64,000 nucleotides of DNA, from the NCBI RefSeq assembly GCF_900105765.1, contig NZ_FNTX01000001.1, positions 1,522,387 through 1,586,386 on the forward strand, written 5' to 3'. The notes under the pieces were generated by a model. That model saw only the letters and a program-made list of their open reading frames with translations, did no database searches and had not been told where the DNA came from. The position numbers were made by a program, and so were the translations under genes. This DNA is from Ruania alba (lineage in GTDB: Bacteria; Actinomycetota; Actinomycetes; Actinomycetales; Beutenbergiaceae). Positions 14,545 to 17,915 of this stretch are shown here, piece by piece; the first letter of the stretch is position 1; each line of letters starts with the position of its first letter.

Positions 14545-15897
14545 GTGGACCTGTTCGAGTCAGCCGGGACCGACGAGGTCGGTGTCCCGCAACCGTCCGC
14601 CGGCGCACCCCTGGCAGTGCGGATGCGCCCGTCGCGGCCGGAGGAGGTACTCGGGCAGGCCCACCTGCTGGAGCCTGGCTCGCCGTTGCGTCGACTGATC
14701 GAACCGCCGGAGGCGGGTGCGTTACCGCCGTCGTCGGTGATCCTGTGGGGACCGCCCGGCACCGGGAAGACCACGCTGGCCTACCTCGTGGCACATGTCT
14801 CGGGCCGCCGGTTCGTGGAGCTGTCCGCAGTGACGGCCGGGGTGAAGGACGTGCGGCAGGTCATTGCGGATGCCCGACGGCGGTTGGCCGGCTCCGGCGA
14901 GGAGACGGTCCTCTTCATCGACGAGGTGCACCGCTTCTCCAAGACCCAGCAGGACGCGTTGCTCCCGGCGGTGGAGAACCGGTGGGTGACGTTGATGGCG
15001 GCCACCACCGAGAACCCGTCCTTCGCGGTGATCTCACCGCTGTTGTCCCGGTCGATCATGCTCACGCTGCGGTCCCTGGAGACCGAGGATCTGGACGCGC
15101 TGATCACCCGGGCGTTGGCGGACGAGCGTGGCCTGGGTGGGCGGATCCCGTTGGAGGACGATGCACGGGAGTACCTGCTGCGATTGGCCGGGGGCGATGC
15201 ACGCAAGTCGCTGACCATCCTGGAGGCGGCGGCCGGGACCGCGGGCAGTGCGGGCGCCGAGAGCATCACGCTGGACGCGATGGAGCGAGCCATCGATGTG
15301 GCGGCCGTGCGTTATGACCGCGACGGGGACCAGCACTATGACGTGATCAGCGCGTTCATCAAGTCGATGCGGGGCAGCGACGTGGATGCTGCCCTGCACT
15401 ACCTGGCCCGGATGGTGGTGGCGGGGGAGGACCCGAGGTTCATCGCCCGGCGGATCGTGATCGCCGCGTCCGAGGATGTCGGGATGGCGGACCCGACGGC
15501 GTTGCAGACGGCCGTGGCCGCTGCCCAGTCGGTGGCGTTGATCGGGATGCCCGAGGCACGCATCATCCTCGCCCAAGCGGTGGTGCATGTGGCGAGCGCA
15601 CCGAAGTCGAACGCGTCGTATGCGGGGATCAACGCCGCGATCGCCGATGTGCAAGCGGGCCGCATCGGGGTGGTGCCGGCGCACCTGCGTGACTCGCACT
15701 ACGCCGGCTCGCAGCGCATCGGCCATGGCGCCGGCTACGTGTACTCCCACGACGAGCCGCACGGGGTCGCGCGGCAGGAGTACCTGCCTGAGGATCTCGC
15801 CGGCTCGCGCTACTACCAGCCCACCGACCGCGGGTTCGAGCGCACCCTGACCGAGCGGCTCGATCGCGTCCGGGACCTGCTCGGCCGGGACCGCTGA
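14545..15897 (+). CDS. rarA: replication-associated recombination protein A (MgsA/RarA AAA+ ATPase)
   Basis: AAA+ ATPase acting at stalled replication forks. Walker [11 protein letters not shown] is at about residues 68-77, Walker [13 protein letters not shown] at ~131, sensor 1 ATTENPSF, and the C-terminal tetramerisation region contains the family block [19 protein letters not shown] and APKSNASY. At 450 residues it has normal length. Longer reading frames exist upstream, but GTG 14545 gives the family-typical N-terminus MDLFESAG and sits 7 nt after a TAGGCT box. It is followed by inverted repeat copy A and the convergent DUF559 gene. Confidence 0.96.
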
Positions 15898-15910
15898 CCC
15901 CACCACCACC

Positions 15911-15985
15911 CGCGAGTGCGGCCGATCTCGCTCAACTGCTGAGATATTCGCGAGATTGTCCGCACTCGGCGCGCAGCGAGTGCGC
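15911..15985 (-). repeat. three-armed palindromic repeat, copy A (inverted partner of 17021-17095)
   Basis: Read on the minus strand the element is: arm GCACTCG, 8-nt spacer, arm CGAGTGCGG, 38-nt core containing ATATCTC, arm CCGCACTCGCG. Arms 1 and 2 pair, as do arms 2 and 3. Hand alignment to copy B is gap-free over 75 positions with 49 identities; the arms are invariant and the spacers have diverged. The element begins 13 bp after the rarA stop and ends 2 bp before the stop codon of the convergent DUF559 gene. It could also act as a terminator for both genes. Confidence 0.85.
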
Positions 15986-15987
15986 TC

Positions 15988-16920
15988 TCACCCGAGCGAG
16001 GCTGGTCGCCGTCGGGCGATCGCGCGGCGCACACGGGTGATCAGTCGCATCGGATATCGGATCACGTCATCGGCGGTGGCCGTGATCACGAGCCAACCGT
16101 CGTCTTCCAGGCGCTGCCGCCGCTCGATGTCACGTCGCCAGGTGGCGGGATCGGTGCGGTGCACGTCGCCGTCGTACTCGATCGCGATCTTGAGCTCGGG
16201 GTAGGAGAGGTCGGGCCTCGCGAGGAATGAGCCATCCTCGGCATACGCCTCCTGGTTGACCACCGGTTCGGGGAGGCCGTTGCTGACCATGTGCAGTCGC
16301 AGCCGCGACTCCATGGTCGACTCGGTGCCGGGTCGAACGAGGGTGGCGGCCGCTCGCGCGGCGCGCACACCCCGTGCGCCGGGGAACGAGTGCGCGATCT
16401 GATGCAGCTCCGCGGGTGTGATCCATGGGTCATCGCGCCGCATCATGGCGTCCCCGAGAACCACTAGGTCGTCCAGCCGGAGCCGTGCGGCCAGGTGCAT
16501 CCAGGTCTGTGGGGGTGTGGTGAGGCACAGAGCTCCGTAGTCCATGACGGCGAGACCCGGCCGGCCGCAGAAGTGAGCCTCGATCTCTGGCCGGTCTGGG
16601 CGTTCGGCACGTCGGGGCAGGACCACGTGAATCCGTGCGTCCTCCTGGAGTTTCCAGGGCACCTCGATCCCGAGCAGTCGGAGCGCTGTCACATGGCTGA
16701 ACGCATAGGTCGAGTGCAGCGCAGGTACATAGGAGGCGCAGCGTGACCACAGATCACGGGAGTCGCCCTCGCACGGGAGGGTGCTGCGCACTCCCCACAG
16801 GGGCGAGTCGAGTGAGGATCGCTGCAGTTGCCCACGTGAGGCGCCGGCATCGAGAGCGTCCTTGACCGAGAAGGTTCGGGTACTGAGCGCATCGGGCAGT
16901 GGGGTCGGAAGTCGAGACAT
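15988..16920 (-). CDS. DUF559 (Vsr-like) endonuclease-domain protein with AbiEi-like N-terminus
   Basis: Predicted DNA-acting protein of 310 residues. The C-terminal ~110 residues form a DUF559/Vsr-like PD-(D/E)xK nuclease fold: E-S-x-x-E-S-R-L-R helix, RPDLSYPELKIAIEYDG (candidate catalytic D, E and D) and DVHRTDPATWRRDIERRQRL. The N-terminal ~60 residues (FSVKDALDAGASRGQLQR ... LWGVRSTLP) resemble the winged-helix start of AbiEi-type proteins; the middle region is hydrophobic-helical. The gene is flanked by two 75-bp inverted palindromic repeats, which makes it a candidate small mobile or repeat-maintaining unit. No partner gene (toxin or methylase) is adjacent. Function is not known. Confidence 0.85.
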   Translation of the reverse strand: MSRLPTPLPDALSTRTFSVKDALDAGASRGQLQRSSLDSPLWGVRSTLPCEGDSRDLWSRCASYVPALHSTYAFSHVTALRLLGIEVPWKLQEDARIHVVLPRRAERPDRPEIEAHFCGRPGLAVMDYGALCLTTPPQTWMHLAARLRLDDLVVLGDAMMRRDDPWITPAELHQIAHSFPGARGVRAARAAATLVRPGTESTMESRLRLHMVSNGLPEPVVNQEAYAEDGSFLARPDLSYPELKIAIEYDGDVHRTDPATWRRDIERRQRLEDDGWLVITATADDVIRYPMRLITRVRRAIARRRPASLG

Positions 16921-17020
16921 GTCACGACTTCAGTACGGTCGCTGAATCCTCGCCGTCAGCGAGGGGGCGGGTTGTGGACAGCGGTGCAACACCTCGGTTT
17001 CGGTGGATTCGCGACCGTGG

Positions 17021-17095
17021 CCGCACTCGCGCACGATCGAGTGCGGGCGTTTGCGCCCATATCTCGCGAAATGGAACGAATCGGCCGCACTCGCG
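17021..17095 (+). repeat. three-armed palindromic repeat, copy B
   Basis: Direct reading: CCGCACTCG arm (17021-17029), 8-nt spacer, CGAGTGCGG arm (17038-17046), 38-nt core with ATATCTCGCGAA, CCGCACTCGCG arm (17085-17095). Same architecture and length as copy A but opposite orientation, 100 bp upstream of the DUF559 start codon. Outer flanks of both copies are also alike (CCAC-rich on the outside of the CGCGAG end). Confidence 0.85.
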
Positions 17096-17123
17096 GTGGG
17101 CGTGGGTGGGGTGGCGGGTGCGG

Positions 17124-17129
17124 TAGAGT
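17124..17129 (+). promoter_or_regulatory. putative rpsD -10 box (TAGAGT)
   Basis: TAGAGT about 160 nt upstream of rpsD and 29 bp outside repeat copy B. It implies a leader of roughly 150 nt. Confidence 0.45.
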
Positions 17130-17288
17130 GGTGGGGTTGCCCAGACGGGCACGCCTGGGGTCTTAGCCGATGGTTCTCGTTCCGCTCGCCGGAATCGGAC
17201 CGGGAGTTGGCCCCACACCTCCCTCCTTCCGGTACGTCCGGTCCTGGAGCGTGGTGTGACGTCACGATCAACACGACAGGAAGCATTC
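17130..17288 (+). other. non-coding rpsD leader
   Basis: No open frame of interest. It holds small inverted repeats (GCCC-agac-GGGC near 17140-17153; CCGG-tacgt-CCGG near 17229-17241) and a perfect 10-bp palindrome GTGACGTCAC (17256-17265). S4 autoregulates its mRNA in other bacteria; whether this leader does so is unknown. Confidence 0.35.
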
Positions 17289-17915
17289 ATGGCATCAAAG
17301 AACCGCACGCGCCGGCAGGTCCGGCTGTCCCGTTCGCTCGGGCTGGCCCTGACCCCGAAGGCCGTCAAGTACTTCGAGAAGCGGCCCTACCCGCCGGGTG
17401 AGCACGGCCGCGCACGCCGTCGGACCGAGTCCGACTACGCCGTCCGTCTGAAGGAGAAGCAGCGGCTGCGCGCCCAGTACGGGCTGCGGGAGGCCCAGTT
17501 GCGCCGCGCGTTCGTCGAGGCCCGGCACGAGCAGGGCCTGACCGGTGAGTCGCTGGTCGAGCTGCTCGAGATGCGCCTGGACGCGCTCGTGCTGCGCGCC
17601 GGGTTCGGCCGCACCATGGCCCAGGCCCGCCAGGCCGTCGTGCACCGCCACATCCTCGTGGACGGCAAGCTCGTGGACCGCCCCTCGTTCCGGGTGAAGC
17701 CGGGCCAGGTCGTCCAGGTGAAGCCGCGCAGCCAGACGATGGTGCCTTTCCAGGTGGCCGCCGCCGGTGCACACCGCGACGTGCTGCCCACGGTGCCGGA
17801 GTACCTCGACGTGCAGATCGAGAAGCTGCGCTTCGAGCTCAGCCGCCGCCCGAAGCGCGCCGAGGTGCCGATCACCTGCGACGTGCAGCTGGTCGTCGAG
17901 CACTACTCGCGCTGA
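17289..17915 (+). CDS. rpsD: 30S ribosomal protein S4 (cysteine-free form)
   Basis: Primary 16S rRNA-binding protein of the small subunit. At 208 residues it has the S4 N-terminal region followed by the S4 RNA-binding domain (LLEMRLDALVLRAGFGRTMA, AVVHRHILVDGKLVDRPSF). The N-terminal CxxC zinc knuckle of C-plus S4 is absent, so this is the zinc-independent C-minus form. The ATG at 17289 follows GACAGGAAGC; the frame is open further upstream but without family similarity. It stands alone with its own promoter, away from the usual rpsM-rpsK-rpoA cluster, as in many Micrococcales. Confidence 0.96.
   Translation: MASKNRTRRQVRLSRSLGLALTPKAVKYFEKRPYPPGEHGRARRRTESDYAVRLKEKQRLRAQYGLREAQLRRAFVEARHEQGLTGESLVELLEMRLDALVLRAGFGRTMAQARQAVVHRHILVDGKLVDRPSFRVKPGQVVQVKPRSQTMVPFQVAAAGAHRDVLPTVPEYLDVQIEKLRFELSRRPKRAEVPITCDVQLVVEHYSR

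Follow-up and report, generated by a model that had tools for sequence, protein, structure and literature searches.

A REP-like palindrome family paired with a predicted nuclease gene

The 64,000-nucleotide stretch of the Ruania alba genome analyzed here (the window; contig NZ_FNTX01000001.1, positions 1,522,387 to 1,586,386) harbors, between rarA and rpsD, a gene for a predicted nuclease of 310 amino acids, which is enclosed by two copies of a palindromic element. We consider it probable, albeit some way short of certain, that gene and palindromes together constitute a system resembling repetitive extragenic palindromic (REP) sequences, in which a nuclease with AbiEi-like and Vsr-like halves is paired with a single cognate family of palindromes of approximately 56 bp and is also responsible for the propagation of that family. 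The pairing of gene and repeat, the family-specific sequence of the repeats, their dispersal, and the existence of repeat-free sites in relatives were each observed by computational analysis.

The gene (15988 to 16920, minus strand) is situated between rarA, which ends at position 15897, and rpsD, the ATG of which was placed at 17289 by reading of the sequence. Surrounding it are two copies, A and B, of a three-armed element in mutually opposite orientation. The core of this element is a 56-bp imperfect palindrome, CGAGTGCGG-N38-CCGCACTCG, which is followed 8 nt later, toward the gene, by a third arm. The arms are located at 15913 to 15921, 15960 to 15968, and 15977 to 15985 in copy A and, on the other strand, at 17021 to 17029, 17038 to 17046, and 17085 to 17093 in copy B, the spacings of 38 and 8 nt being identical in both. 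In an ungapped alignment the copies are identical at 47 of 73 positions from arm to arm, or at 49 of 75 if two flanking bases are added, and the description of two inverted 75-bp copies given in a first-pass annotation of this DNA was thereby reproduced. That annotation had further credited each copy with three conserved arms, which holds for five of the six arms; the exception is the third arm of copy A, in which the terminal base is a mismatched C. The features of the locus are as follows.

15898 to 15912, plus strand: outer C-rich tract of copy A, directly after the rarA stop codon (C bias seen in 57 dispersed copies)
15913 to 15968, plus strand: copy A, 56-bp imperfect palindrome with arms CGAGTGCGG and CCGCACTCG and a 38-nt gap (pattern search; hairpin z score of -3.25)
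15977 to 15985, plus strand: third arm of copy A with a terminal mismatch, located on the gene side 8 nt past the palindrome (arm at +8 in 38 of 57 copies)
15988 to 16920, minus strand: gene for the 310-amino-acid protein with a predicted AbiEi-like half and Vsr/EDxHD-type nuclease half (profiles, predicted structure, conserved residues)
17021 to 17029, minus strand: third arm of copy B, gene side (sequence reading)
17038 to 17093, minus strand: copy B, 56-bp palindrome in the orientation opposite to that of copy A (pattern search; hairpin z scores of -2.32 and -1.23)
17094 to 17119, minus strand: tract rich in G (in C when read on the minus strand) flanking copy B on its outer side, stopping just short of a -10-like TAGAGT of rpsD at 17124 to 17129 (sequence reading)

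The z scores derive from folding as single-stranded DNA relative to shuffled sequences, for which copy A gave -3.25 and -3.00 on its two strands and copy B gave the weaker values listed above. The lone 9-mer arm was not enriched within the window (71 matches at one mismatch versus 62.6 expected).

Dispersal of the palindrome in two congeneric genomes

An exact search for the two arms in the 4.83-Mb genome that contains the window (designated G000), with gaps of 28 to 45 nt permitted, identified 20 sites, all with a gap of 38 nt, while the reversed-pattern control identified none; the flanking palindromes are, therefore, not a product of chance. With up to one arm mismatch allowed, 31 copies were found in G000, among them A and B. 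When 24 genomes of this taxonomic family were searched, the same pattern was present in five, namely, G000 (31 matches), the congener G004 (25 matches), and G010, G002, and G016 (one match each), with none in controls. The single matches of G002 and G016, in which the inner palindrome is missing, appear chance-like. Multiple copies are thus confined to G000, which possesses the gene, and G004, which retains a remnant of it with 70% identity over residues 1 to 81 and an internal stop. G010 encodes an approximately 60% identical homologue in two contig-end pieces, possibly representing one gene, and a CGAGTGCTGG version of the palindrome is present in the flanks of this homologue. Some homologue was detected at an E value of 1e-6 in 22 of the 24 genomes, the best identity outside G000, G004, and G010 being at most 49%. 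Three draft contigs of G010 (C150, C404, and C488) break off either within the gene or at the palindrome, which is the behavior expected of repeats that interrupt assemblies.

A total of 57 copies were read, comprising 31 in G000 and 26 in G004 (one of the latter found via looser arms), among which copy B is the farthest from the consensus (template matches at 40 of 56 positions). C makes up 56% of the 25 nt flanking these copies externally, compared to 28% on the opposite side, and a third arm at +8 (up to two mismatches) is present in 38 of the 57, compared to 0.9% at control offsets. Based on a simple and crude GC3-based (third-codon-position GC content) gene caller, 48 of the 57 copies are intergenic (20 between convergent, 24 between tandem, and 4 between divergent genes) and 9 overlap a predicted open reading frame; the same caller placed 177 of 1,140 random control positions in the same loci between genes. 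At least one flank of 17 of the 31 G000 copies matches the flank of a listed G004 copy. Arm identity in G000/G004 copy pairs amounts to 16 to 18 of 18 positions, which by itself is no evidence for selection because both sets were chosen for intact arms.

Many homologues are associated with palindromes of their own

Four homologues of the protein are encoded by G000 (E value of 0.001), and each of the three other paralogues lies between palindromes or arrays that are unrelated in sequence, with TTGAGTGTCG arms at locus L004, ACCTTGTGCGGC arms at L003, and GGCACCTACC arrays at L002. At the last of these loci (1230 to 1400 and 2460 to 2760) the paralogue is enclosed by arrays of several GGCACC/GGTGCC units, not by single palindromes.

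The upstream and downstream flanks of homologues were compared by their best ungapped match. A score of at least 15 was obtained for 32 of 40 family loci, compared to 12 of 400 swapped pairings, which may include orthologous loci; the 40 were drawn from 44 such loci, L010, L016, L043, and L057 being omitted due to short flanks. A second set consisted of named actinobacterial loci, including representatives of Sanguibacter, Oerskovia, Isoptericola, Jiangella, Rathayibacter, Cryobacterium, and Mycobacterium (the best 80 of 109, with one species represented several times and L191 probably derived from a genome also included in the family-locus comparison). Seventy-three of these 80 were tested, as L193, L195, L199, L201, L202, L257, and L259 do not have 450 nt on one side. 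Scores of at least 18 were reached by 28 of the 73 loci and by none of 139 control intervals shifted by 1,500 nt, scores of at least 15 by 30 loci and 6 displaced controls, and strong hairpins were present on both sides of the gene in 26 loci and 3 displaced controls. The best match within the 28 strong pairs was direct in 15 cases and inverted in 13, near-perfect palindromes blurring this orientation, and the inverted layout described in the first-pass annotation did not prove to be a defining property of such loci.

Among 59 loci with flanking hairpin repeats, a common palindrome was found for 17 of 22 pairs of proteins with at least 60% identity and for none of the 1,689 pairs below 60%, the best sharing score of which was 14 (cutoff of 15). 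Pairs that cross genus boundaries are L192/L194 (Puerhibacterium and Isoptericola) and L185/L186 (an uncultured member of the Cellulomonadaceae and Flavimobilis). Two further palindrome families were counted in 33 of 34 genomes, with controls yielding none. The CGAGATGCCA palindrome occurs in four Rathayibacter genomes (92, 90, 8, and 2 copies) and in Naasia aerilata (2 copies) but in none of the other 28 genomes, while the CCGAGAAGTGA palindrome occurs in four Oerskovia genomes (16, 12, 5, and 2 copies) and in none of the other 29; both families are likewise tied to gene-bearing genomes, save for the two Naasia copies. In Oerskovia turbata, two of the five CCGAGAAGTGA copies lie 1,052 nt apart and, as predicted, the frame enclosed between them encodes a homologue (E value of 5e-88), the two previously known homologue loci of this species carrying other repeats. 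The palindrome of locus L025 (up to three mismatches) was found 19 times in G005, which possesses the gene, 12 times in its close relative G002, which does not, and not at all in six other congeners. Cognate pairing of gene and palindrome is consequently well supported. The outcome that the first-pass annotation had named as contrary to its proposal, copies spread over the genome independently of DUF559 genes, was not observed: the copies are indeed spread, but repeated copies of the window family were found only where the cognate gene or its remnant exists.

Loci L012 to L015, from four congeners, represent a separate homologue clade with GGGCCGAATAATCGACCC-type repeats on both sides of the gene (scores of 23, 64, 96, and 34), and the homologue of Bifidobacterium saguini (L260) has a long direct repeat on each side (score of 85). 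An asymmetric GGCGTGTCG word is common to the palindromes of Rathayibacter loci L219, L226, L229, and L234 and of L018, L041, and L042 (7 of 59 flanking repeats), and is almost invariant in 33 Rathayibacter copies, which were partly chosen by this word itself. By analogy, it may be a tag comparable to the GTAG of REPs.

Matching sites in relatives

Within the 24 genomes, the rarA-rpsD interval contains the gene and both palindromes in G000, a decayed gene, the left palindrome, and one right arm in G004, and a partial gene in G010. Six other congeners possess intervals of 198 to 317 nt with neither a homologue nor a CGAGTGCGG arm, and the comparison of relatives suggested by the first-pass annotation thus did reveal intervals free of gene and repeat. 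Eleven further genomes contain no homologue at this position and four were left unjudged. In this comparison rarA was not placed in L145 to L148 nor, at a contig end, in L150. A palindrome scan of all 24 rarA-rpsD loci detected the element in G000, G004, and G010 only.

For eight dispersed G000 copies, 12 orthologous stretches were available from G002 (seven) and G006 (five), none of which contains the element; most are shorter, and at L064 other sequence of similar length is present. At the same eight sites G004 contains four copies that the pattern had missed (more arm mismatches or shifted length) and four sites without a recognizable copy. At the L025 locus, G002 lacks 1,210 bp, the ends of which lie approximately 13 nt outside each palindrome, and no target-site duplication was observed at this single clean junction examined. 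The L064 site, where G000 and G004 carry the CGAGTGCGG palindrome, is occupied in G002 (L171) and G006 (L180) by sequence resembling the L013/L015-type repeat (best scores of 17 and 15 versus shuffle maxima of 14 and 12, four other comparisons falling within the shuffles), and is possibly one intergenic place used by different repeat families.

The protein is predicted to combine AbiEi-like and Vsr-like halves

According to its predicted structure, the 310-amino-acid protein consists of an AbiEi-like winged-helix half (residues 4 to 196) and a Vsr/EDxHD-type nuclease half (residues 201 to 306), in the latter of which E204, D237, E248, G251, and R267 are conserved. It is thus predicted to represent a fusion of an AbiEi-like DNA-binding half to a Vsr/homing-endonuclease-like half. 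The Vsr-like identity originally assigned to the gene product is backed by this model, although the Pfam matches to MTES_1575 REase (29.6 bits) and DUF559 (16.6 bits) are both under the curated cutoffs. No partner toxin or defense gene adjoins the gene, its neighbors being rarA and rpsD.

Conservation of sequence and of structure

In the first-pass annotation, arm conservation was taken to imply selection on structure. This argument does not hold for the window family, the arms of which cannot show structure because their sequence itself is conserved, almost without variation. Its inner part is paired in 86% of cells, compared to 26 to 45% when slid, with a covariation score of 0.076 versus 0.066 in shuffles (30 of 500 equally high). 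The inner stem of the Rathayibacter family displayed strong covariation (0.281 versus 0.144, with 0 of 500 shuffles equally high, and at most 0.097 when slid) in 33 copies that were chosen by hand from the pattern matches and whose outer arms were fixed by the search pattern. Selection for a hairpin is nevertheless unproven in this family, as template switching inside a palindrome can also yield such changes.

Proposed mechanism and alternative explanations

The cognate palindromes are probably the binding sites of the nuclease. In what is most likely the mechanism, the AbiEi-like half, as a dimer, would read the symmetrical arms, and the nuclease half would cut or nick at or near the palindrome, following which repair templated by another copy would spread and homogenize the repeat. 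Such repair-copying would be the reason that gene and repeat persist jointly. This model, which combines features of REP systems and of homing endonucleases, is the most economical.

A number of observations weigh against it. The model does not account for how cutting of a chromosomal repeat stays nonlethal, and perfect arms persist in 16 of the 25 copies of G004, a genome with a broken gene. In the CGAGTGCGG family, covariation of the inner part is weak. The association is not universal, since 45 of the 73 named loci, many of them from Bifidobacterium and Curtobacterium, have no strong flank match, and 5 of the 22 close protein pairs have no common palindrome. Shared ancestry of the flanks is a confounder, because most of these pairs are intrageneric and L044/L191 is probably one locus (the protein of L044, from a family genome, is 100% identical to that of Serinibacter arcticus L191). 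The two CGAGATGCCA copies of Naasia aerilata are not accompanied by a homologue within 1.4 kb, and a DNA search revealed one L025-type palindrome in G006 that the pattern search had missed. Repeat-free sites could also be losses, palindrome movement not having been directly observed; related genes occupy the L025 site in G000 and G001, and the probability of a loss from G002 is, therefore, no lower than that of a gain in G005.

The protein may instead repress its own gene via the AbiEi-like half, with the dispersed palindromes forming its regulon. There is precedent for this, as AbiEi and Rv2827c bind inverted repeats within their own promoters (PMC7319586), and one palindrome does lie upstream of both the nuclease gene and rpsD. 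We nonetheless consider such an operator function unlikely, given that the common repeat is also found downstream of the gene (in 32 of the 40 family loci and 28 of the 73 named loci), that divergent genes flank only 4 of 57 copies while the 20 between convergent genes have no obvious operator target, and that nuclease residues E204, D237, and E248 are conserved. It is distinctly unlikely that the gene encodes an unusual transposase of a classical insertion sequence, with A and B as terminal inverted repeats and the dispersed copies as solo ends or miniature elements. The two flanking copies, the clean presence/absence of approximately 1.2 kb at L025, and the rarA-rpsD intervals of relatives without gene and repeat all favor this explanation. 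The inverted orientation expected of terminal repeats is seen in the window, and both orientations occur among the strong pairs elsewhere, where near-perfect palindromes blur the distinction.

The location of the copies, frequently just past stop codons and often between convergent genes, would suit ordinary bidirectional terminators that multiplied for reasons of their own beside a bystander nuclease gene. This we regard as very unlikely, as a pattern scan finds no T-run terminator, repeated copies are confined to genomes with a cognate gene or remnant (again save for Naasia), each paralogue has different repeats, and repeat sharing across the gene far exceeds that of controls. A role in defense, with foreign DNA as the target of the nuclease and the palindromes of the chromosome serving either to mark self or to titrate the enzyme, is suggested by the commonest AbiEi model of a defense library, which matches 22 of 34 homologues, and by the Vsr-like nucleases of defense proteins (PMC3710099). 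It appears highly improbable, since no toxin or defense partner adjoins the gene and self-marking explains neither the gene-flanking pair nor the paralogue-specific repeats. Finally, the anatomy of the repeats is similar to that of REPINs (PMC3116915) and would be compatible with mobilization in trans by a REP-associated tyrosine transposase (RAYT) or another IS200/IS605-type transposase. The Y1 transposase profile PF01797 is unmatched in G000, G004, and 21 other family genomes, its two matches being in G010 only; we attach almost no credence to this explanation, which is close to refuted for G000.

Relationship to known systems

REPs and REPINs are short, extragenic, dispersed hairpin palindromes, each class being tied to one repeat-flanked enzyme gene with which it coevolves (PMC3116915 and PMC8266576). 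The window family is similarly repetitive, extragenic, palindromic, and dispersed, and its enzyme gene is flanked by its own repeat class, with one class per enzyme. The parallel to RAYTs drawn in the first-pass annotation, with a PD-(D/E)xK-type nuclease substituting for the transposase, is thus borne out by cognate pairing, dispersal, paralogue-specific repeats, and repeat-free sites in relatives. The differences are that the enzyme is an AbiEi-Vsr-type nuclease, whereas RAYT is an HUH/Y1 transposase, that the palindromes are approximately 56 to 66 bp long, accompanied in the window family by a third arm and an outer tract rich in C, and that the consensus derived for the 56-bp core from 57 copies contains neither a GTAG nor a CGTC tag.

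With EDxHD homing endonucleases (I-Bth0305I) and Vsr, the protein is predicted to share the Vsr-like nuclease fold and conserved acidic residues, but it differs in its AbiEi-like fusion, its location outside an intron or phage, and its putative target, a multicopy palindrome. The predicted AbiEi fold is that of type IV toxin-antitoxin AbiEi antitoxins (6y8q; Rv2827c), from which the window protein is distinguished by its nuclease half and by the absence of an adjacent AbiEii (DUF1814) toxin gene. Its nuclease half also matches MTES_1575 REase (PF18741) and DUF559 weakly; passages of PMC3710099 place MTES_1575 REase among the domains of giant HEPN/helicase proteins, a context unlike the palindrome-flanked gene described here, and do not mention repeats.

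A conserved leader upstream of rpsD

Directly after copy B, positions 17124 to 17290 constitute an rpsD leader (GTTGCCC..GGGCAC.CCTGGGGTC.TAGCCGA..GGAGT.G.CCCC), which is strongly conserved in seven aligned congeners and recognizable in other rarA-rpsD intervals. On the basis of its sequence it is a candidate ribosomal-protein leader RNA; an Rfam search of 15850 to 17400 returned no family up to an E value of 5.

Implications

REP repeats are among the commonest repeats of bacteria, and to our knowledge RAYT transposases are the only enzymes that have been linked to them. A survey of the open literature, which leaves most subscription papers and preprints outside its reach, retrieved no title or abstract in which dispersed palindromes are connected with MTES_1575, DUF559, or AbiEi-nuclease proteins. 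We lean, by a modest degree, toward the view that actinobacteria possess a second, independent REP system, in which homing-type AbiEi-Vsr nucleases multiply their own palindromes and keep them uniform, with pairs coexisting in one genome (four homologues in G000) and families reaching up to about 90 exact copies in those genomes for which counts were made. If true, this would represent convergent evolution of a repeat-keeping system with the same anatomy via a second enzyme lineage, and it would point to a role for numerous genes currently labeled "DUF559" or "AbiEi antitoxin domain." The many natural protein-palindrome pairs would, moreover, constitute a testable code, which is expected to be readable by the AbiEi-like half.
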